Part shown: positions 8,386-25,968 of the stretch, in pieces | Numbering within the stretch: the first letter of the stretch is position 1 | Layout of the letters: every line of letters begins with the position of its first letter | IMG/VR virus record: IMGVR_UViG_3300025674_000334 | Location: 1 to 25,968 of that record | Reading direction: 5' to 3' (one strand) | Length of the DNA: 25,968 nucleotides | From: a virus | Notes under the pieces: model-generated | The model's database searches: none | Seen by the model: the letters and a program-made list of their open reading frames with translations, nothing else | What the model was told of the DNA's origin: nothing | Translations under genes and position numbers: made by a program

Positions 8386-10980
8386 GTGATCGTAGCCGCA
8401 CCAGAACCCCAGCGCCCCGGTAAACACCTCAAGCCTGGACAGATTGATCTCAATCTGATTCCTTTGGATTGGGCTTTAACGCCGCTTAGGGAGAAACGTG
8501 CCTATGTGCCAGGGTGGACCTCGAAGCCACACTCTATTGAGCAGATCCGCGTAGAGCTGAATGAGGGCCGTGCCACAGGGGTAGGCCTGATGAGTGGCCA
8601 GTGGTCCAATGAGGGTGCGCTGATCTGGGTTGATATTGATGGGCCAGAAGCAATCCCTGCACTGGAAGAGCTGGCAGGTGGATCGCTTTATACCATTTTC
8701 CCCCCTACGCTGACGATTTCGTCTGGTAAACCGGGTCGGATGCGTATGCTTTACAGCGTACCAGCAAGCAAAATCCCGCTGCTGCCGGACAAGGCGACTA
8801 TCAAGATAGGTGTTCCGTCGTTCGAAATCCTGTTTCGCTCTAGGCAAGGAGCAATCATGGGGAGTCACCCGGAAACAGATGGCTATTTCACCATGCCCCA
8901 CGGTGGTTTTGAGTTTGCTAAAAATCTTCCGGAAGTTCCTGAGTGGTTATATGAAGGAATCGGCCAAGCTTTTCCAACAAATAAGTATAGAAAACCTGTT
9001 AGGTCTGGAGTAATTACTCAAAACATCAACCTTCAATACGAAGAAGGATCTAAGTTTAAATTAGAAGAGGCAATTGAGGAGGCGAAGTCTTATCTTCCTT
9101 ACTTGAGCATTGAAAGGGCAACTGACTACGAGGAGTGGCTTGCCATTGGTATGGCTCTTCACCAGGTCAGTGAAGATCTGTTGAATGCCTGGATTGAATG
9201 GTCGTCCCAAGCGGCGAATTTTGATCCTGAAGCCTGCAATGAGAAGTGGCGTTCGTTTGAGCGGTTGCCAGGGGGACCAAATCCTGATAATGGTAGAGGA
9301 ATTCATACGTTGAAATCTAAGGCGAAAGAGGATGGATACCTTGAGCTGGGTGGATTTGTGGTTGAGTCGCCAGAAGAGTTGATGCAGCAGGCGCAAGAAG
9401 CGTTTGATGATGCTGATATGGACAGCGTTTCAAGCTTCGGTGCATTGGATCGGGCAATGCGAGCCATGATCGGTGTTACTGACGATTTCGGTGATGATAT
9501 GGAAGAGGAGGTTAAGCAAGGTTCAAAACGTGGCCGCCCCAGGACACCTCCCGCTTCGGAGCTGGCAAACATAGTTACCGGGATGGTTAATGAAATCGGG
9601 TGGCGCTACGATCCGAAGTACGACACCTTTATGTTTTACCATCGCAGCAGGGGAATTTGGCGGCGAGAGGATTATCCCCATGAATTCCGCCACACTGTTC
9701 AGGATCTTTTTATTAGGGAGCGAGTTCCTACTCCCAGTGGATTTACAACTCACCTGATCAATGACGTCGTATCGCTGACTCAGGCGTACATTTCTCAACC
9801 TGATTGGCACGATGATGACGATTTACTTTCCTTCCATAACGGTGTTCTGGAAGTCAGTACAGGTGAGTTTCTTGACCATGATCCTGAAAATTATTTGGTC
9901 TGGGGCCTGGATTTTGATTATGATCCGCAAGCAAATCCTGGTCCAATTATTGACTGGTTGCGACGCACTCAATATGGTGACGAAGGTCGGCTCCAGGTTC
10001 TCAGGGCCTGGTTGAGAGCCTGCCTCGTCGGTCATGGTCACGAGATTCAGAGATTCCTGGAGGTCATCGGACCCGGCGGACGCGGTAAGTCCACTTTTGC
10101 AAACCTGTGTTGCGCTTTGGTTGGTACCGGCAACTACGCCAGCACTACTCTTAATCAGTTAGAGCAGAGTCGGTTTGAGATTGCCTCTATTAAAGGTAAG
10201 CGATTAACTCTGATTAACGATTCAGAGCGTTATGGTGGTTCCGCTCAAATCTTTAAGGCTTTGACGGGTGGTGATAATCTTCGCTTTGAGGAGAAAAACA
10301 AGAATGTCGGGGAACCCTTTGTGTACACAGGCATGGTTATGGTTTGCGCCAACGAGCCGATCCAGACCACCGACAACACGTCTGGCTTGACGAGGCGACG
10401 TCTTACTCTTGAGTTCAATCGTCCCCTGTACGACAAGAATTCAGAAGCAAAGGAGATGATTAAGCTTGATAACGGTATCGTAAAGGGCTTATGGAAGAAT
10501 TATTTACCTGGGTTAGTGAACTGGGTTCTGGAAATGAGTCACAAAGAGATGAAGGAGTATCTACTCGATACTTACGAAAAAGTTCCGTCTCTTTCCAGGG
10601 TTAGAAATGAAATTTTGTTGAATAGTAATAACTTGATTGAGTGGTTGCAGTCGGAAATTGTTTATGTTGAGGGGCATGTCTCATCTGTTGGTAAAAAGAT
10701 TCCAGCAGCTAAGGACGCACCAGAGAGGTATAACAACAGTGGCCACCACCTTTATGCAAGTTATTGCTCTTACGCTGAAGATACTGGCAGCAAGCCTATA
10801 GGTCAGAAGAGATTTATTGCTCTACTTCTGGACTGCTGCACCAATCAACTTGGTTTGAAAGATGTTAAGCAGTTTAGTAAGTATGGTAGACCTTTTGTTA
10901 TAGGTCTTGCTGTTCGATCTAGTGATGTGAAGTTTCAGTCCTATCCTACAATTCTTCCAGAAGGTAAAATTGAGTCTTAG
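8386..10980 (+). CDS. bifunctional primase-polymerase / SF3 helicase
   Basis: An 864-residue replication protein. Residues about 20-190 form an archaeo-eukaryotic prim-pol domain with the ALIWVDIDG motif (D83 and D85) and the later GSHPETDGYF strand. Residues about 225-318 match the PriCT-2 linker (SIERATDYEEWLAIGMALHQ). Residues 480-690 are a D5/P4-type superfamily 3 helicase: Walker A GPGGRGKST at 562-570, Walker B LTLINDSE at 607-614, sensor MVMVCANEP, and an arginine finger near TRRRL at 670. It would prime and unwind phage DNA. The GTG at 8386 is used because the first ATG lies beyond the prim-pol start. Its stop overlaps the end of a convergent leftward gene. No separate replicative polymerase is in the window. 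Confidence 0.92.
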   Translation: MIVAAPEPQRPGKHLKPGQIDLNLIPLDWALTPLREKRAYVPGWTSKPHSIEQIRVELNEGRATGVGLMSGQWSNEGALIWVDIDGPEAIPALEELAGGSLYTIFPPTLTISSGKPGRMRMLYSVPASKIPLLPDKATIKIGVPSFEILFRSRQGAIMGSHPETDGYFTMPHGGFEFAKNLPEVPEWLYEGIGQAFPTNKYRKPVRSGVITQNINLQYEEGSKFKLEEAIEEAKSYLPYLSIERATDYEEWLAIGMALHQVSEDLLNAWIEWSSQAANFDPEACNEKWRSFERLPGGPNPDNGRGIHTLKSKAKEDGYLELGGFVVESPEELMQQAQEAFDDADMDSVSSFGALDRAMRAMIGVTDDFGDDMEEEVKQGSKRGRPRTPPASELANIVTGMVNEIGWRYDPKYDTFMFYHRSRGIWRREDYPHEFRHTVQDLFIRERVPTPSGFTTHLINDVVSLTQAYISQPDWHDDDDLLSFHNGVLEVSTGEFLDHDPENYLVWGLDFDYDPQANPGPIIDWLRRTQYGDEGRLQVLRAWLRACLVGHGHEIQRFLEVIGPGGRGKSTFANLCCALVGTGNYASTTLNQLEQSRFEIASIKGKRLTLINDSERYGGSAQIFKALTGGDNLRFEEKNKNVGEPFVYTGMVMVCANEPIQTTDNTSGLTRRRLTLEFNRPLYDKNSEAKEMIKLDNGIVKGLWKNYLPGLVNWVLEMSHKEMKEYLLDTYEKVPSLSRVRNEILLNSNNLIEWLQSEIVYVEGHVSSVGKKIPAAKDAPERYNNSGHHLYASYCSYAEDTGSKPIGQKRFIALLLDCCTNQLGLKDVKQFSKYGRPFVIGLAVRSSDVKFQSYPTILPEGKIES

Positions 10981-11801: not shown

Positions 11802-12308
11802 TCACACAGGAGGAAGTTGTATGCCCCTAGACATAATGCCACGGCGTTCCAGTTCTTGCTGTAGTTGTTGATTTTGCATTGAACCACTGCCGCCCTGTAA
11901 ACGGAGCAATTGCTCACCTGAGCGACGGCCTAATGCCCCCTGACTTTGATTAATATCAAAGCTAGGTGATCTTGCTTCTTTTACTCCAGGAGATCCAAGC
12001 TTGCGGCGGATGTCGTCAAAAAATCCTGCTGGTGGTTTGGCGCCAGGTTGCTCCATCTTCTCTATAGCTTCCCGAGGAACCTCTTGTCCAGGACTGCCAC
12101 CCCAGTTCGGCTGCTTTTGACCAATGAAAAAACGAAGAAAGTCAAAGCCTGGGGCATTTTGTTTGTCTGGCAGCGTCTCAATATCAAAAGTCATCCCTGG
12201 TCTGACCGGCAGCGTCTCAATATCAAAAGTCATTCCAGGCCTGACTGGCATTGTTGAGAACCCGTTATTACCAGGCATTCGAGTTCTGCCTTCGTCAAAA
12301 GTCATCAT
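11802..12308 (-). CDS. low-complexity protein with internal tandem repeat
   Basis: From the ATG at 12308 (MMTFDEGRTRMPGNN) the product is 168 residues, rich in Pro, Gly, Gln and Arg, and probably disordered. It holds two tandem copies of PVRPGMTFDIETL (39 bases each at DNA level). The C-terminal third has QNQQLQQELERRG, a possible helix. Starting at 12308 places it directly behind the stop of the upstream gene (TAA overlap region 12310-12312), arguing for coupling; a longer frame to 12365 overlaps the neighbour heavily. Probable virion-associated or assembly protein; no family recognised. Confidence 0.6.
   Translation of the reverse strand: MMTFDEGRTRMPGNNGFSTMPVRPGMTFDIETLPVRPGMTFDIETLPDKQNAPGFDFLRFFIGQKQPNWGGSPGQEVPREAIEKMEQPGAKPPAGFFDDIRRKLGSPGVKEARSPSFDINQSQGALGRRSGEQLLRLQGGSGSMQNQQLQQELERRGIMSRGIQLPPV
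12169..12246 (-). repeat. two tandem 39-bp repeats inside a gene
   Basis: Units 12169-12207 and 12208-12246 differ at only a few third-codon positions and encode PVRPGMTFDIETL twice. It is an in-frame duplication. Confidence 0.9.
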
Positions 12309-12309
12309 G

Positions 12310-13017
12310 TTACTTGATCCCGTAAGCGGCAAGAGTGTAGCCCTGTTCTGCTTGTGCGCCAGCACCTAGGTCACGGGGATGGACATATGAGTCCTCTTCT
12401 GTCTCCGCCGCTTTCTTGGCTTTTGTTTTTTCAAAAAGGCGTTTGGCCAGCATCGGATTGGCTTCTGCCCATTGAGCAAGGGGAGTTTCTTTGGCGTACC
12501 CCAGGCCTTCGGTAATGGCAGGCATCTCAGCACGACCAGCAGCACTCTGGGACCTGTAGTAGGTCGAGAGTGGTGTCTCCATCGGAGCCTTCTGTTGCGT
12601 CGCCAGTGTCATCATCTCCTCTGCTGTCTTAGGAGCGCCGGCACTACGAGAGGAAGCGCCGAAGAAAGGATCCATTTCACTGGTACCGAAGTAGCGTGTG
12701 AACTGCCCTTCACTGGTCATGGGTTGCGCCTTGAATTGAGGCCGACCACCGCCCCCTCCAGTGATTGAGTTTTCAGGAGCAGGGAGGACAGGCGCTGCTG
12801 GAACCGTGAAAGGAACCTGCATGTTGCCAGGTATGTAACGCCCAGTTGGATCGCCTTGAAGTGGATTTGGAGCAAACAAACCACCTAGAAACTTTTCAAT
12901 GCGAGGAATTATGCCAGCAGTAAAGTCGCCAGGGGCACCATACCGGTACTCCCCTTTATCAGTAAGAAAGCGTTTACCTTTCCCTGGAACATTAACGAAA
13001 CGACCTCCATTAGACAT
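12310..13017 (-). CDS. unknown virion-type protein (235 aa)
   Basis: The ATG at 13017 gives MSNGGRFVNVPGKGKRFLTD and 235 residues. The N-terminal 100 residues are Gly/Pro-rich with low complexity (SITGGGGGRPQF); the rest is Ala/Gln-rich with helical character and ends DLGAGAQAEQGYTLAAYGIK. This composition is usual for phage virion or scaffold-associated proteins. A longer frame to 13092 would start in the divergent promoter region and is not preferred. It is followed closely by the repeat-containing gene in the same operon. No family recognised. Confidence 0.62.
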   Translation of the reverse strand: MSNGGRFVNVPGKGKRFLTDKGEYRYGAPGDFTAGIIPRIEKFLGGLFAPNPLQGDPTGRYIPGNMQVPFTVPAAPVLPAPENSITGGGGGRPQFKAQPMTSEGQFTRYFGTSEMDPFFGASSRSAGAPKTAEEMMTLATQQKAPMETPLSTYYRSQSAAGRAEMPAITEGLGYAKETPLAQWAEANPMLAKRLFEKTKAKKAAETEEDSYVHPRDLGAGAQAEQGYTLAAYGIK

Positions 13018-13077: not shown

Positions 13078-13263
13078 GTGAAGATTATTCAAACTTTTTC
13101 AAAAGGAACAACTATTGAATTCGGAGAGGACTCAAAAGGCCACCAGATTTACCGCGTCTGTTCCGCCACAGGAGCCATGTGCCGCCTAACCGAGCCATAC
13201 CACTGCGCATTGGTTTATGCCCAGCAGTACGAAGAGTTCTATTCGATGACGGAGCCAAAATAG
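13078..13263 (+). CDS. unknown small protein (61 aa)
   Basis: A GTG start at 13078 gives MKIIQTFSKGTTIEFGEDSK, then GHQIYRVCSATGAMCRLTEP and a Tyr-rich end. Two cysteines lie eight residues apart and the strand-turn pattern suggests a small beta domain. It sits behind a possible TACAAT -10 at 13045 and before the repeat-rich non-coding region. The GTG is used since no ATG follows before the core of the protein. No family recognised. Confidence 0.6.
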   Translation: MKIIQTFSKGTTIEFGEDSKGHQIYRVCSATGAMCRLTEPYHCALVYAQQYEEFYSMTEPK

Positions 13264-13294
13264 GGTCCGGTAAGCAAAGAGAAATCAGTTTTTT

Positions 13295-13338
13295 TGTACG
13301 GTCAGATACTAACCCATGTATTAGTATGTGCGCGTACA
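13295..13338. repeat. inverted repeat, 18-bp arms, 8-base loop
   Basis: Arm 13295-13312 (TGTACGGTCAGATACTAA) pairs with 13321-13338 (TTAGTATGTGCGCGTACA) with three mismatches. It shares the TGTACGGTCA core with the 26-base copies further on. Confidence 0.8.
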
Positions 13339-13340
13339 GT

Positions 13341-13357
13341 TTTCTGGACCCCAGAAA
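13341..13357. repeat. perfect 7-bp hairpin TTTCTGG/CCAGAAA
   Basis: Stem TTTCTGG and CCAGAAA around ACC. The CCAGAAA half also occurs in the arms of the large repeat (13508-13679). Confidence 0.7.
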
Positions 13358-13380
13358 TGTACGGTCAAAACCTACCCCTT
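13355..13380 (+). repeat. 26-base direct repeat, copy 1
   Basis: Starts AAATGTACGGTCAAAACCTA; repeated at 13601-13626 with a single base difference. The 13295 arm is a diverged third copy. Confidence 0.85.
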
Positions 13381-13507
13381 TTTAATTTTTTGTATTTTTT
13401 TGTTCTAGATTGGCCACTATTTGAGAAATAGTTGGGGTTATAACACGAAATTGGCAAACCCTTGTTGGGTTGAAGGGGCAGCATCCCAGTCAGGAACTGA
13501 AAAAAAA

Positions 13508-13679
13508 TCAACGGCCAGAAACATCCAAAAAAAGGGCGATTTCACTTAGTACGTAAATCTAAGGGTTAGGTTCTGCCAGTACATTCTGAACAAGGGTTTA
13601 AAATGTACGGTCAAAACCTAACCCTTAAAATTACTATATAAGTAAAAAGAGGCTTTTTTTGGGTGTTTCTGGCCGTTGA
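13508..13679. repeat. 172-base element bounded by 27-bp inverted repeats
   Basis: Arm 13508-13534 (starts TCAACGGCCAGAAACATCC) and arm 13653-13679 (its reverse complement) differ at one base; in RNA the mismatch is a G-U pair, so 27 of 27 positions could pair. Inside lies a second inverted repeat (13561-13626). Confidence 0.88.
13561..13626. repeat. inner inverted repeat, 26-bp arms
   Basis: Arm 13561-13586 (starts AAGGGTTAGGTT) is the reverse complement of copy 13601-13626 at 22 of 26 positions, with a 14-base loop. The right arm is direct-repeat copy 2. Confidence 0.82.
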
Positions 13680-13687
13680 AAATTTCC

Positions 13688-13716
13688 TTGACACAGCAAG
13701 AGATTTAGGCTAACGT
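13688..13716 (+). promoter_or_regulatory. sigma70-like promoter for the HNH-like gene
   Basis: TTGACA (13688-13693, exact consensus), 17-base spacer, TAACGT (13711-13716). It starts nine bases after the 172-base repeat element and would begin transcription about 17 bases before the ATG at 13740. Confidence 0.6.
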
Positions 13717-13739
13717 GAGGCGTACCTTGGTCATCCGTC

Positions 13740-14873
13740 ATGGGTCCGATCCAGTGTTTCCTTGAAAACGATCTGTCCACCAGGGATGCCGTGCTTTTTT
13801 CGATGGTTTTTCAGGCCTACCTGACCTCCCTTGGCCCAGACCGGTGCTGGTGCATGAAGAAAAACTCTCTCAGCAGCTTCACCGGATTCACCATCTCTCA
13901 GCCTTGTAAAACCAGATACAAAGGCCGCGATGCCAGGATTCTCTCCCTGGCGATAGCCGGGGTGGTGCTGAAAGAGGATGCCGGGCAGGTGGTTGTTCGC
14001 AGGAGTTGTTGCAAGTCTCCGCATTGCATCAACCCAGCGCATTACTACTATGGTTTTAAGAGCGATGTAGCGATGGAGGACCAGGGAAAGAAGCAAATAA
14101 AAAAGGGGGACCCTGCTGCGATGACGCCTAAGCTGGTCGAATTGCTCCGTAGTGAACGTGCCAGGGGGAAATCAATCGCCTCTTTAGCCATTAAATACAG
14201 GCTTAATTACCACGTTGCTCGTCGCGTTTGCAGCGAAGACACCTACAGAAGCAGTGGAGGTGTAAACTTCAATGAAGACTCATTGCAAGCCCTGTGGCTT
14301 ACGGCATCTCAAAACTGTATTAATATATACAAAAACCACCCGGATGCCGCCAGGGAACTCAACATCTCGTATAACGTGACTCAGCGACTAACCTGCCCCT
14401 GGCACCAGAAAAAAAGCGACAAGCACAAAGGCAACTTTGGGCTGATGGGCGAATGCCTGGATTGCATGGAGGAGCTTAAGGAGGGCCGCTGCTCCGTGGA
14501 TGTGACCCAGTTCGACATGGATTGGTACTGGCAGGTGAAGCGGTTCTGGGAGCAGGTAGACATTAAGAGTCCGAACGAGTGCTGGCCGTGGCTAGGACCG
14601 ACCAGGAGGGGCGGTAGGGAGTCAGTGGCGTACTTCCCCTCCCCTATCCACGCAGGCACCGCTCAGTCCGCTTCCAGGGTTGCTTTTTGGCTAAGCCGGG
14701 GCTATACAGGTAAGTATCGGGTTTTCTCTCGTAAGGACTGCACGTCTTTCTGTTGCAACCCACTGCATCTAAGCCTGACGGAAGCGGTGGAGTGTAAAGC
14801 TCCAAGTGAAATTTCTAACATCAAACTCAACCATTCCAATGTCCTCCAGCACTACAAGCAAGCCAGTAAGTAA
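13740..14873 (+). CDS. duplicated HNH-like zinc/HTH protein
   Basis: A 377-residue protein with two copies of an HNH_3-like zinc module. The first (residues about 35-105) has RCWC, a helix, then C91-KSPH-C96-INPAH. The second (about 280-345) has ECWPW, ASRVAFWLSRG, then C334-TSFCC-NP-LH343. The C..NP.H pattern and the CW and R-V-A-F elements are those of phage HNH homing-type endonucleases. Two helix-turn-helix-like stretches (SIASLAIKYRLNYHVARRVC and DAARELNISYNVTQRL) and a CxxC pair near 239 lie between them. The catalytic His that normally precedes the first zinc Cys is not evident in either copy, so cutting activity is doubtful and DNA binding alone is possible. It lies against the repeat region. 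Confidence 0.7.
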   Translation: MGPIQCFLENDLSTRDAVLFSMVFQAYLTSLGPDRCWCMKKNSLSSFTGFTISQPCKTRYKGRDARILSLAIAGVVLKEDAGQVVVRRSCCKSPHCINPAHYYYGFKSDVAMEDQGKKQIKKGDPAAMTPKLVELLRSERARGKSIASLAIKYRLNYHVARRVCSEDTYRSSGGVNFNEDSLQALWLTASQNCINIYKNHPDAARELNISYNVTQRLTCPWHQKKSDKHKGNFGLMGECLDCMEELKEGRCSVDVTQFDMDWYWQVKRFWEQVDIKSPNECWPWLGPTRRGGRESVAYFPSPIHAGTAQSASRVAFWLSRGYTGKYRVFSRKDCTSFCCNPLHLSLTEAVECKAPSEISNIKLNHSNVLQHYKQASK

Positions 14874-22448: not shown

Positions 22449-22752
22449 GCTATCCACTGCATATCGCCTTCGTTTGTCTACCATCTGTAACAGAATTGCA
22501 ACTCAACAATCCATTGATTTAGAAGATCGCATCTGGGCACAGAAGCTCGGGGAGGCCAATCGTACTGCTGCCAGTATGCTCCGTTGTGCTCACAGAAATG
22601 CCGCCAACCCCGACATGATTGAAGGCGGCATGGATGCCTTCCTCAACGCTTTGGATATTGGTGGTCAACCCAAGCGACGGTTTGAAAGCCCTGATGATAT
22701 TGCTGATTGGTTCAGGCGGGACAATTCTTTGGATTGGCGCCAGCGGGACTAA
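22447..22752 (+). CDS. conserved-looking small protein (101 aa)
   Basis: The ATG at 22447 gives 101 residues. The likely core begins near residue 17 (ATQQSIDLEDRIWAQKLGEA), followed by NRTAASMLRCAHRNAANPDM and DIADWFRRDNSLDWRQRD at the end. It is helical, rich in Arg/Asp and without a known motif. The ATG overlaps the start of the leftward DUF3310 gene, leaving no room for both promoters, so the true start may be downstream (for example the TTG at 22474). Its end overlaps the convergent GT-methyltransferase gene by 41 bases. Confidence 0.58.
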   Translation: MLSTAYRLRLSTICNRIATQQSIDLEDRIWAQKLGEANRTAASMLRCAHRNAANPDMIEGGMDAFLNALDIGGQPKRRFESPDDIADWFRRDNSLDWRQRD

Positions 22753-24334
22753 ACACCATGGCATTTTGCAGGAACCACCCCATGTGGTAACCCTTGCCGA
22801 TATGTAGCAGCATCTCGCCTTCAAGCTGCATCATGCGCGTAAGACCCTGTGCTTCAAGGCGCTGCTGCCAATATGCCTTGTCTTGACAGTTGATGTGACC
22901 CACGCCGCCTTGACCAGGTTTCGCGGCGCTCCATATCAGCGTGCCGCCATCAGCAACGGCGCCAGCAATACTTGCTGCAACGGCATCCGCATCAGCTTCG
23001 GGTAAATGCTCAGCTACTTCAAGACATAGCACCACGTCGGCAATTTCGGTGAGGTCAAACATGCTTTGCTGCGTCAGGTGCGGCTTACCTTTGACGCGCT
23101 CATCAGTGTCGATGCCTGCTGCATCGATGCCATTGTCACGCATGGCGTTGACGTAGGTGCCAGGTCCGCAGCCAATGTCCAAGGCAGTGGCGGGATCAAG
23201 CGTGTCGGCTATCCACTCAGCAAGTCGCTTGGCAAATGGCCCTTCTTCGCATTCGATTTCGTAGTAGTTGATCTGGTCCACCTCGTACCACCCTTTGCGA
23301 TACAGGTCATTGAGCTGCTTGAAGATTTTGTCGTATCGCTTGCCGCAAGCATCAAGGCTGTAAACGGCGCGTGCTCTGTCCGCAATAGCAGCACGATCCA
23401 GCTCACCAACGTCATTGATACCATCTAACCAATCTTGCAACGTGTGGCAACGAAAGCCCATACCATCCTGCACAGTTTCAGTCATGGCACCGTAGTCCAC
23501 GCTTACCACGGGAGTGCCGCAGAGCATGGCTTCTACTGCCATGCCGCAGAAGGGCTCGGTGAAGACAGTCGGCGCCAGCAGTGCGCGGGCATTACGCAGG
23601 AACTCGCTGCGGGCTGCGCCAGTGATGGGCCCGCGATATTCGATGTTGGGGTGCCCCCATGGCGCGGGGTCGCCTTGGCCGTGCAGCACAATCGGCCACG
23701 GGCTGTAATCGGCAATCGCTTTGATGGTATCAATGCCTTTGAGTGCAGTGATGCGCCCCAGGAAGGCGAGGTACTGCCCCGGCTCGTAGTTGGGTTGCCA
23801 GTCGTCGAGGTCGTAGTAATTGGGCACTACCCATTCGTAGTTCTTGCCGTTGCGGCCCTCTTTGCCTTGGTGGTAGTGCATCCATGCGTAGCTCTCGAAA
23901 ATGCGGAAGCTATTGGGCATCAGCGTGGGGTAGCCGATGCCGGTTTCAACGTGCTGATGGTTGGGGAACTCAGCCATCAGTTGCTGGTGCGCATGGCCGA
24001 ATGGGTGGCAGATTATGTCTTGTGGTTGCAGTCGCTCACGTAATGCTGGGATCAAGCGTTGCTCGAAGAGTTGGTGGGCTTTGCTGCCGACAGTGGCATC
24101 GTTGCCGTGAAAGTCGGTTTCGCTGCGCTGGAATAGGGCTCCAAACTCTGCTGCGTCGAGCATGGTGACGTGCTCATCTGCACCAGCTTCAGAGCCGGCA
24201 TTGCTGTATTCCACCACGCGATAACCTTGGCGTTGCATCATCTTGGGAAAGCGCAATGCCTTGCCGGTGAAGGCGCAGTGGCTATATGCAGCAGTGTGTT
24301 GCGTGTGGAAGATGCCGATTAGGTGGAGGGTCAC
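22712..24334 (-). CDS. GT4 glycosyltransferase fused to SAM methyltransferase
   Basis: A 540-residue bifunctional protein. Residues 1-345 form a GT-B glycosyltransferase of family GT4: LAFLGRITALKGID around residue 190, then E260-PFCGMAVE-A-MLCGTPVVS with the EX7E motif (E260 and E268). Residues about 355-530 are a class I methyltransferase: ALDIGCGPGTYVNAM (motif I, 386-392) and later LEVAEHLPEADA. It would transfer a sugar and methylate it or a neighbour, on virion or host glycans. The gene is more GC-rich than both neighbours. Its ATG overlaps the stop of the 67-residue gene (ATGA), and it overlaps a convergent gene by 41 bases. Confidence 0.82.
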   Translation of the reverse strand: MTLHLIGIFHTQHTAAYSHCAFTGKALRFPKMMQRQGYRVVEYSNAGSEAGADEHVTMLDAAEFGALFQRSETDFHGNDATVGSKAHQLFEQRLIPALRERLQPQDIICHPFGHAHQQLMAEFPNHQHVETGIGYPTLMPNSFRIFESYAWMHYHQGKEGRNGKNYEWVVPNYYDLDDWQPNYEPGQYLAFLGRITALKGIDTIKAIADYSPWPIVLHGQGDPAPWGHPNIEYRGPITGAARSEFLRNARALLAPTVFTEPFCGMAVEAMLCGTPVVSVDYGAMTETVQDGMGFRCHTLQDWLDGINDVGELDRAAIADRARAVYSLDACGKRYDKIFKQLNDLYRKGWYEVDQINYYEIECEEGPFAKRLAEWIADTLDPATALDIGCGPGTYVNAMRDNGIDAAGIDTDERVKGKPHLTQQSMFDLTEIADVVLCLEVAEHLPEADADAVAASIAGAVADGGTLIWSAAKPGQGGVGHINCQDKAYWQQRLEAQGLTRMMQLEGEMLLHIGKGYHMGWFLQNAMVFSPAGANPKNCPA

Positions 24335-24534
24335 AAGGCATCAGGCTCTAGCGGCAGGTCAAAGAACAAGCGTGCCTCTTCTTCTGTGTCAAACCAGTAC
24401 CAGCCATCAATGGGGTAGGAATGCTGATCACGGGTTTCCCGATACAGTTTGTAGTTGGCGTTTAGCACGTAGTTGGGTCCATAAAGAAGGATCTCGTCAA
24501 GTTTGTAAAATCCGCTGGTGTTCATGTTTGTCAT
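24331..24534 (-). CDS. small protein coupled to the fibre and GT genes (67 aa)
   Basis: The ATG at 24534 gives MTNMNTSGFYKLDEILLYGP and 67 residues ending in EEEARLFFDLPLEPDAL. It is rich in Tyr, Leu and Asp; the alternating beta pattern (NYVLNANYKLYRETRDQHSY) suggests a small fold, perhaps a fibre chaperone or adaptor. Both ends overlap neighbours in ATGA: the LRR fibre gene upstream and the glycosyltransferase downstream. This arrangement implies coupled translation of three genes. No family recognised. Confidence 0.62.
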   Translation of the reverse strand: MTNMNTSGFYKLDEILLYGPNYVLNANYKLYRETRDQHSYPIDGWYWFDTEEEARLFFDLPLEPDAL

Positions 24535-25968
24535 CCGGCTACCGTCCATCCTTTGTTTTCTGCAATACTAGGGGTGTCACCAGCAGTGCCATGATTGCCC
24601 GTGACAGTGATAGTTTGTGTTGTCGCCACTGTTGGAAGATTAGTGTAGATTTCGTTCAGTTCGGTAGCACCAAGTTTACAATTAGCAACAGAAAAAGTAT
24701 AGTTAAAATTGGACGCTTGGATGCGAGATAAAGAGCCGCAATCGGTAAACATAGAGCCAAAGTTTCCTGAGGAAGAAACGGCAGATACATTAAGCGCTGG
24801 CACACTAGACAGAGAAGAGCACCCCTGAAACATGCTGCCTGCATTTGTCACCGCTGCGGTATTGAACAGCGGTACGGTGACCAAAGATCTGCAGTTCCTA
24901 AGGAAATTATTTGCATTTGTAACTGCGCCGATATTAAATAATGGCACATTGGCTAAAGCTTCGCAGCTAATAAACATTTGGTTTGCATCAGTAACTGCTG
25001 CAAGATTAAACAATGGTACGGAGACCAATGAAGAACAGTTTCTGAACATTGTGGCCGTGTTGTTCACCGCTACAGTGTTAAATAGCGGCACAGTAGTTAA
25101 GGATGAGCACTCCGCAAATGTGCCAGCCATTGATATTGTGCCTGTAGTCTTAAAATTAAAAAGGGGCACACTAATTAACGACCTGCAGCCAACAAACATT
25201 TCGTTTGCATTATTTACATTTATTAAATTAAGCAACGGAACGGTAGTTAGGGATGTGCAGCCGTTAAACATGCTGTTTGCATTGGTTACCACTGCAGTGT
25301 TATATAACGGAACTGTAGTTAAAGATGAACAACCAACGAACATTTGCGAAGCGTTATTTACGGCTGCCGTATCAAAAAAAGGCGCAGCGGTAAGGCTGAC
25401 GCAACTGTTAAACATGCTAAACACGTTTGTAACTGCTGCGGTATTGCCGAGTATAATTTGTCTTAGCTTTCGAAAGCCATTGAACAGATTGCTTAAGTTA
25501 GTGCAGCTACCGATTGACCGAATCGCAGCTCGTTCGCACATCGCAAAGCGCACATTAGTGCCGCCAATGGTCAGGCCAGACGCACTTAAGTTTGTGCCGC
25601 TTAGCTCAATATCCAACCAACCAGTTTCGTATGTTTGCAAATTGGTGGCAGTGTGTTTTACGTTTAAGTTAAACGTAGTAAGATTTTGTCCTGCTTGCGG
25701 AGTAACAACAACAATGGCCTGCTTATAGGGCAGTAGAGTTGCAGAGCCGTTTGTAGTGAGCGCAATGGCAGAGCCACCTACGGTTTCCGTCACTTGAAAA
25801 TTATTTGTCGTCGCATTGATAACATAATATGTCTGTGCTGCTGTCAGTCCAGTGGTGGAAACAATGTTATAGAAACGCACTTCCATGCCATTGCTATAGC
25901 CGTGTGCCGTGCGCTCAACCAAATCCCCTGCATCGGTGAGCGTTACCGGCGCATTGGTATTGGCTAGG
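24531..25968 (-). CDS. BspA/DUF285 leucine-rich-repeat tail fibre (5' end outside window)
   Basis: The frame is open to the window edge, so the start lies beyond 25968; at least 478 residues are visible. After a beta-rich head with turns like THN and AQTYYVINATTNNFQVT there are about ten copies of a 24-residue repeat of the type NTAAVTNANSMFxGCSSLTTVPLF, the BspA/DUF285 family of surface leucine-rich repeats. The C-terminus ends GTAGDTPSIAENKGWTVAG. Such repeats in phages usually lie in receptor-binding fibres. The product is followed by the coupled 67-residue gene and the glycosyltransferase. Confidence 0.78.
   Translation of the reverse strand, partial: LANTNAPVTLTDAGDLVERTAHGYSNGMEVRFYNIVSTTGLTAAQTYYVINATTNNFQVTETVGGSAIALTTNGSATLLPYKQAIVVVTPQAGQNLTTFNLNVKHTATNLQTYETGWLDIELSGTNLSASGLTIGGTNVRFAMCERAAIRSIGSCTNLSNLFNGFRKLRQIILGNTAAVTNVFSMFNSCVSLTAAPFFDTAAVNNASQMFVGCSSLTTVPLYNTAVVTNANSMFNGCTSLTTVPLLNLINVNNANEMFVGCRSLISVPLFNFKTTGTISMAGTFAECSSLTTVPLFNTVAVNNTATMFRNCSSLVSVPLFNLAAVTDANQMFISCEALANVPLFNIGAVTNANNFLRNCRSLVTVPLFNTAAVTNAGSMFQGCSSLSSVPALNVSAVSSSGNFGSMFTDCGSLSRIQASNFNYTFSVANCKLGATELNEIYTNLPTVATTQTITVTGNHGTAGDTPSIAENKGWTVAG
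24723..25445 (-). repeat. array of about ten 72-bp coding repeats
   Basis: Each unit codes 24 residues centred on MFxGC(S/T)SLTTVPLF. Units vary at the DNA level, some close to identical in protein, which is a setting for recombination. Confidence 0.75.

Follow-up and report, generated by a model that had tools for sequence, protein, structure and literature searches.

What is the function of the repeat-rich stretch that separates a small conserved gene from an HNH-like gene in a relative of Synechococcus phage S-EIV1? The window, meaning the whole stretch of DNA analysed here, is contig G000, a virus record of 25,968 bases. A preliminary description, made from the letters alone, had noted several hairpins and repeats between positions 13264 and 13739 and proposed a replication origin with iteron-like elements, a large operator, a mobile element or an RNA element. 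We found no account in the literature of how S-EIV1-like cyanophages start replication, and such phages are widespread in the viral contig collection that we searched. Judged by its sequence and by analogy with known systems, a 172-bp palindrome in this stretch is, on balance, probably the replication origin of the phage lineage, of the pRN1/BPP-1 type and displaced from the replication gene.

A single nested palindrome in the window

The inner and outer inverted repeats proved to be parts of one imperfect palindrome, in which positions 13508-13591 and 13596-13679 are complementary at 66 of 84 positions across a 4-nt gap (Table 1). In ungapped scoring the palindrome reached 43.5, whereas 100 dinucleotide shuffles of the whole window averaged 12.1 and peaked at 14.5. 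Folded as RNA, the region had z values of -13 (+ strand) and -18 (- strand). Both inverted repeats, the two 26-base direct copies and the AT-rich stretch are present as previously described, and a base-by-base check bore out the perfect 7-bp hairpin. The hairpin with 18-bp arms (hairpin A) exists with imperfect pairing. A core had been said to run through every repeat except the outer one: hairpin A, copy B and the right inner arm do have TGTACGGTCA in common, and the 7-bp hairpin lacks it. This 10-mer has three exact matches in the window, all within the repeat region; taken alone it is unremarkable, because three matches with one mismatch allowed were reached in 12 of 100 shuffles. The 476 bases, described as non-coding, are overlapped in their left part by a 68-aa ORF (13179-13385).

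Table 1. Features of the palindrome region and of the genes discussed, in window coordinates.
Feature	Position	Strand	Basis
Long nested imperfect palindrome, proposed stem-loop replication origin	13508..13679		84-nt arms, conservation, covariation
Left outer arm	13508..13534		26/27 pairs with 13653-13679
Right outer arm	13653..13679		Partner of 13508-13534, 26/27
Middle stem TTTCACTTA	13539..13548		Pairs with about 13639-13648 (TAAGTAAAA); RNA folds
Left inner arm	13561..13586		22/26 pairs with 13601-13626
Right inner arm, TGTACGGTCAAAACCTAACCC word	13601..13626		Direct copy of 13355-13380, 25/26
Upstream hairpin A, shares TGTACGGTCA word	13295..13338		13295-13312/13321-13338, 15/18 pairs
Small 7-bp hairpin, perfect	13341..13357		7/7 pairs
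Further copy B of inner-arm word	13355..13380	+	25/26 against the copy at 13601; also in L081
AT-rich stretch	13379..13404		92% A+T
Replication protein: Prim-Pol, PriCT_2, D5_N, DUF5906 (SF3-type) helicase	8386..10980	+	Pfam PF09250, PF08707, PF08706, PF19263
61-aa conserved gene left of palindrome	13078..13263	+	Found in most relatives
Sigma-70-like promoter of HNH-like gene, TTGACA-17-TAACGT	13688..13716	+	Scores 8.6 on average in relatives; control windows 4.3
HNH-like/HTH protein, 377 aa, always adjoins palindrome	13740..14873	+	PHROG HNH matches; weak HTH matches among relatives

Conservation among relatives and pairing of the arms

The window's replication protein is 68-88% identical to those of 69 IMG/VR loci, about 40 of which also carry the HNH-like neighbour protein at 42-76% identity, and it shares 36% identity with that of S-EIV1. 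The interval between the 61-aa gene and the HNH-like gene contains this palindrome in the window and in 38 further loci, a set that is partly redundant, with several near duplicates, and that forms 18 groups below 80% identity. Syntenic relatives devoid of repeats, which the preliminary description had named as grounds for refutation, did not turn up: the palindrome is kept in every relative whose flanking genes were in hand.

The relatives' palindromes, about 155-178 nt long, follow a common plan of outer arm, AT-rich inner loop, middle stem, inner arm and small loop. Their middle stem is short and built around ACTTA/AAGTA, TTTTACTTA/AAGTAAA is present in most of them, and the mean column identity of the palindrome alignment is 63%. 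The outer-arm sequence differs by lineage, reading CAACGGCCAGAAACA, TAAACGACCAAGAGGAGTC, TTGGCCTTCCAAA, TTATCTACCAAA or TGAACACCCAA, each with its own matching partner. In S-EIV1 the counterpart is the strongest palindrome of the genome (centre 7899). It lies about 1.8 kb downstream of the primase, a short HNH-like gene (AHV82135.1) follows close behind it, and its arms read GAAGTAACAGCCTTA/TAAGGCTGTTACTTC and its inner arms GGATATGTAAGAT/ATCTTACATATCC.

In seven relatives and S-EIV1, searched over their full contigs, the inner-arm word is essentially confined to the palindrome region, where by our reading it occurs two to five times. The additional copies vary: the window has two direct copies plus inverted ones, several lineages (G006, G010) have the palindrome arms only, and an upstream equivalent of hairpin A is found in L081, L080 and several marine relatives and is absent in others. 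An origin is the best supported of the readings first proposed, but its key part would be the long palindrome and not iteron-like elements, many relatives being without the extra repeats. The mobile element is contradicted, because each genome has a single copy, always in the same position.

In an ungapped scan, the palindrome was the strongest or tied strongest of its contig in the window, G001, G003, G004, G005, G007, G010 and S-EIV1, although those of G003 and G004 did not rise above shuffled sequence; it was not the top palindrome in G006 and G011. With gapped scoring, the elements of the AT-rich marine relatives stood only mildly above background (z 1.7-2.8), and for these lineages the case is made by the alignment and not by hairpin strength alone. 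Neither the window nor the region had a nucleotide match among phage records. A scan of IMG/VR with the 17-mer TGTACGGTCAAAACCTA returned nine stretches, all within unrelated sequence, which were set aside.

On a structure of 24 pairs, 83.8% of alignment cells pair, against 71.5% in shuffled controls and at most 50% in slid ones. Double-changed cells number 102, against 36.3 in shuffles (none of 500 as high), and double changes occur in 19 of the 24 modelled pairs (11 of 13 outer, 8 of 11 inner). Relatedness among the sequences inflates these counts; this is answered by the slid controls, which retain the relatedness and come out far lower. The comparison indicates that pairing between the arms is under selection. 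Covariation might also arise as a by-product of quasi-palindrome correction by template switching, with little function, a mutation route described as known (PMC3820800). We regard this as most improbable, as the palindrome is kept once, in one place, down to about 36% primase identity (S-EIV1), whereas chance palindromes elsewhere are not kept.

RNA helices tolerate G-U pairs and not A-C. Isolated G-U and A-C mismatches stood at 30:35 in a symmetric hairpin alignment of 18 representatives (summed by hand) and at 19:9 at fixed columns, and single-sequence folds were better on the + strand in most relatives and on the - strand in the window. The mismatches show no consistent strand bias, which fits pairing in DNA better than in RNA; the sequences favour the former while leaving the latter some room. 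That the palindrome encodes a structured non-coding RNA, for instance a partner of the HNH-like protein or an RNA of the 6S kind, is accordingly weakened from its place in the preliminary description and appears quite improbable. Very stable folds on both strands, the better + strand folds of most relatives and the ratio at fixed columns speak for such an RNA, against the unbiased symmetric count, the window's preference for the other strand and an Rfam search without a match at either the gathering or a permissive threshold, HEARO included. Promoter scoring in the relatives also found, in the left flank, no promoter that would transcribe the palindrome, and the HNH-like protein has no RuvC or IscB match. 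The HEARO/omega RNA of IscB resembles this locus as a structured stretch upstream of an HNH-type gene and differs in the Rfam result, in the missing RuvC and in the lack here of a consistent RNA signature. As a candidate, HEARO/omega RNA with IscB was rejected on the absence of an Rfam HEARO match and of a Pfam match for the window protein.

The HNH-like neighbour and its promoter

In the protein encoded beside the palindrome, HTH-like and Cys-rich parts are flanked by two HNH-like motifs. None of the aligned full-length relatives has the usual catalytic His in the C-terminal motif; at the N-terminal one, L015, L069, L023, L076 and L046 have His, and most, including the window, have Ser, Ala or another residue. 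Neither Pfam nor NCBIfam has a model that the window's protein matches, and a Foldseek search with its predicted structure (pLDDT 81) gave only weak I-PpoI and HTH matches, none of them at E<=0.001. Assignment to the HNH homing endonucleases was rejected, the catalytic His being unconserved, and for the same reason its sequence marks the protein as probably DNA-binding rather than reliably a nuclease. If the origin reading is true, a function would also emerge for this conserved gene, which annotation would label an HNH endonuclease.

The preliminary description had remarked that the region holds more structure than a promoter needs; a promoter does exist beside that structure, directly right of the palindrome. 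Its spacing is 17 bp in most relatives, and in most it lies 4-12 bp from the palindrome. This arrangement brings in the main rival to an origin, namely an operator of the HNH-like gene, that is, a large cis-regulatory site whose words would be bound by the HNH/HTH protein or a host factor and whose looped or extruded palindrome would control the adjacent promoter. We give it a lesser share of probability, as an unlikely reading that nevertheless has substance. Its best support comes from S-EIV1, where a third copy of the inner word, ATCTTACATATCCACTT, stands just after the TATAAT upstream of the HNH-like gene; the well-scored promoter so close by in most relatives, the words found nowhere else in the genome and the constancy of the HNH-like neighbour agree with it. 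However, the outer arms still pair while their sequence changes completely, where an operator would be expected to retain its sequence, and about 170 bp is far beyond an operator's need.

Two further blocks were observed in the flanks of relatives. The left flank often has a block such as CTGCGCTGCAAGGGATTT (e.g. L029, L031, L069), which resembles the TTGACACGACAGGGATTT block of the right flank. In the marine relatives L048:7303, L052:7253, L053:1170 and L049:4979 (- strand), a block TTGTAxGTxxTGTACGGTTxCTGTCAATAA..GTAGAATAA lies shortly before an ATG and is possibly a promoter class.

The replication gene and stem-loop origins shown or proposed elsewhere

Besides its Pfam domains, the replication protein has a weak profile match to poxvirus D5 and, in its C-terminal part, a P4-type primase match (TIGR01613) below the curated cut-off. 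Inspected for a C-terminal winged-helix DNA-binding domain, residues 789-843 were modelled as helix-helix-strand-strand at a pLDDT of about 45-71, within a poor model (mean pLDDT 49). Wherever both elements occur (38 loci), the palindrome lies 1.8-9 kb downstream of the Prim-Pol gene and shares its orientation, with genes between.

A close parallel is the crenarchaeal plasmid pRN1, in which a 100-nt stem-loop downstream of the Prim-Pol/SF3 gene is essential (Berkner et al. 2014, PMC4234260). The structure of that stem-loop is conserved while its sequence conservation is low, and restoring the symmetry by a compensatory stem change rescues replication of a stem mutant (PMC4234260). The window shares with the pRN1 origin (ORF904) a long stem-loop with structure conserved above sequence, present in one copy downstream of a Prim-Pol/SF3 gene. 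In pRN1, however, the stem-loop lies directly behind the gene and without repeats, and the need for it as an origin was shown by genetics, whereas here the element is about 155-178 nt long, lies 1.8-9 kb away, has repeated inner words in some lineages and an HNH-like neighbour, and is a putative origin.

For the Bordetella phages BIP-1 and BPP-1 a like stem-loop origin was proposed in 2014, the authors stating that there was no direct evidence of origin firing (PMC4234260). The BPP-1 replication protein has the same Pfam set of Prim-Pol, PriCT_2, D5_N and DUF5906, an architecture that the group BPP-1/BIP-1/BMP-1 shares with the window, together with a strongest palindrome just downstream of the gene. 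In BPP-1 this palindrome scores 30, against about 13 in shuffled sequence, and lies 519 bp downstream; the group differs in this distance, in the palindrome's sequence and in having no HNH-like neighbour of the window's family, and its origin is predicted and unproven. We scanned 15 other Prim-Pol phages for palindromes and found a clear top palindrome directly behind the Prim-Pol gene in only three. In S-LBS1 the strongest is at +218 from the replication gene, and in Loktanella phage pCB2051-A the two strongest (of 45 kb read) are at +147 and +380; C7, phiHSIC and ZP6 have none behind the gene, and the remaining phages are mixed. In S-LBS1 we also observed, at L122:34364-34544, palindrome arms of CCTAACCTACC repeats that resemble the CCTAACC of S-EIV1-like inner arms.

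Two more distant systems offer partial likenesses. The oriV of the IncQ plasmid RSF1010 is alike by description, with ssiA/ssiB hairpins recognised by a dedicated primase and repeats nearby (PMC4234260), and differs in its small hairpins and separate Rep proteins. The alpha protein of phage P4 is of the helicase-primase class that TIGR01613 matches here, and P4 uses iterons and a Toprim-type primase (PMC4234260) where the window has a Prim-Pol and a long palindrome.

If the palindrome is an origin, supercoiling or local melting of the DNA would let its arms form a hairpin or cruciform, at which the Prim-Pol/SF3 helicase may assemble, open the DNA and lay the first primer. Sequence recognition or control would probably fall to the repeated inner-arm word and the adjoining HNH-like protein; a helper protein is plausible because the pRN1 replication protein has not been seen to bind its own stem-loop specifically. 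Against an origin stand the 1.8-9 kb that separate it from the replication gene, unlike in pRN1, and the HNH-like gene with its promoter as the constant close neighbour. The mild pairing in some AT-rich marine relatives, the scarcity of clear top palindromes directly behind the gene in other Prim-Pol phages and the lack of a skew change at the element also count against it. A more elaborate version is a two-part initiation system, in which a stem-loop origin detached from the Prim-Pol/SF3 gene is recognised through a co-inherited, degenerate HNH and HTH protein of homing-endonuclease descent that brings the helicase-primase to the hairpin. Such a system is not yet described, and we offer it tentatively, as a rather doubtful elaboration. 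The lineage adds deep comparative support, from dozens of genomes, to the idea of a stem-loop origin in Prim-Pol phages, put forward in 2014 for one phage group, and S-EIV1 is an isolate in which the origin reading is testable.

Composition (GC) skew does not flip at the palindrome and is uninformative as an origin test. A very unlikely alternative is a single-strand DNA signal, either a lagging-strand start or a single-strand promoter, formed by the folding of an exposed strand. The DNA-level pairing without strand bias would suit it, and uniform third-position GC skew in some relatives hints at one-directional copying, but no known single-strand promoter or sso sequence was identified, and its content overlaps that of the origin reading. 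The skew itself was seen in G003, G004 and G011, where its sign on each strand stays constant over almost the entire genome, which suggests one-directional or strand-displacement copying. The 80,858 bp of G011, with 94-bp identical ends, are therefore probably a complete circular map.

Elsewhere in the window, three genes on the - strand drew attention. Positions 22712-24334 encode glycosyltransferase and methyltransferase domains in a single protein, the ORF at 11802-12365 contains the tandem peptide repeat LPVRPGMTFDIET, and the ORF at 24531-25922 has many short repeats, which we take to be of the leucine-rich surface-protein kind.
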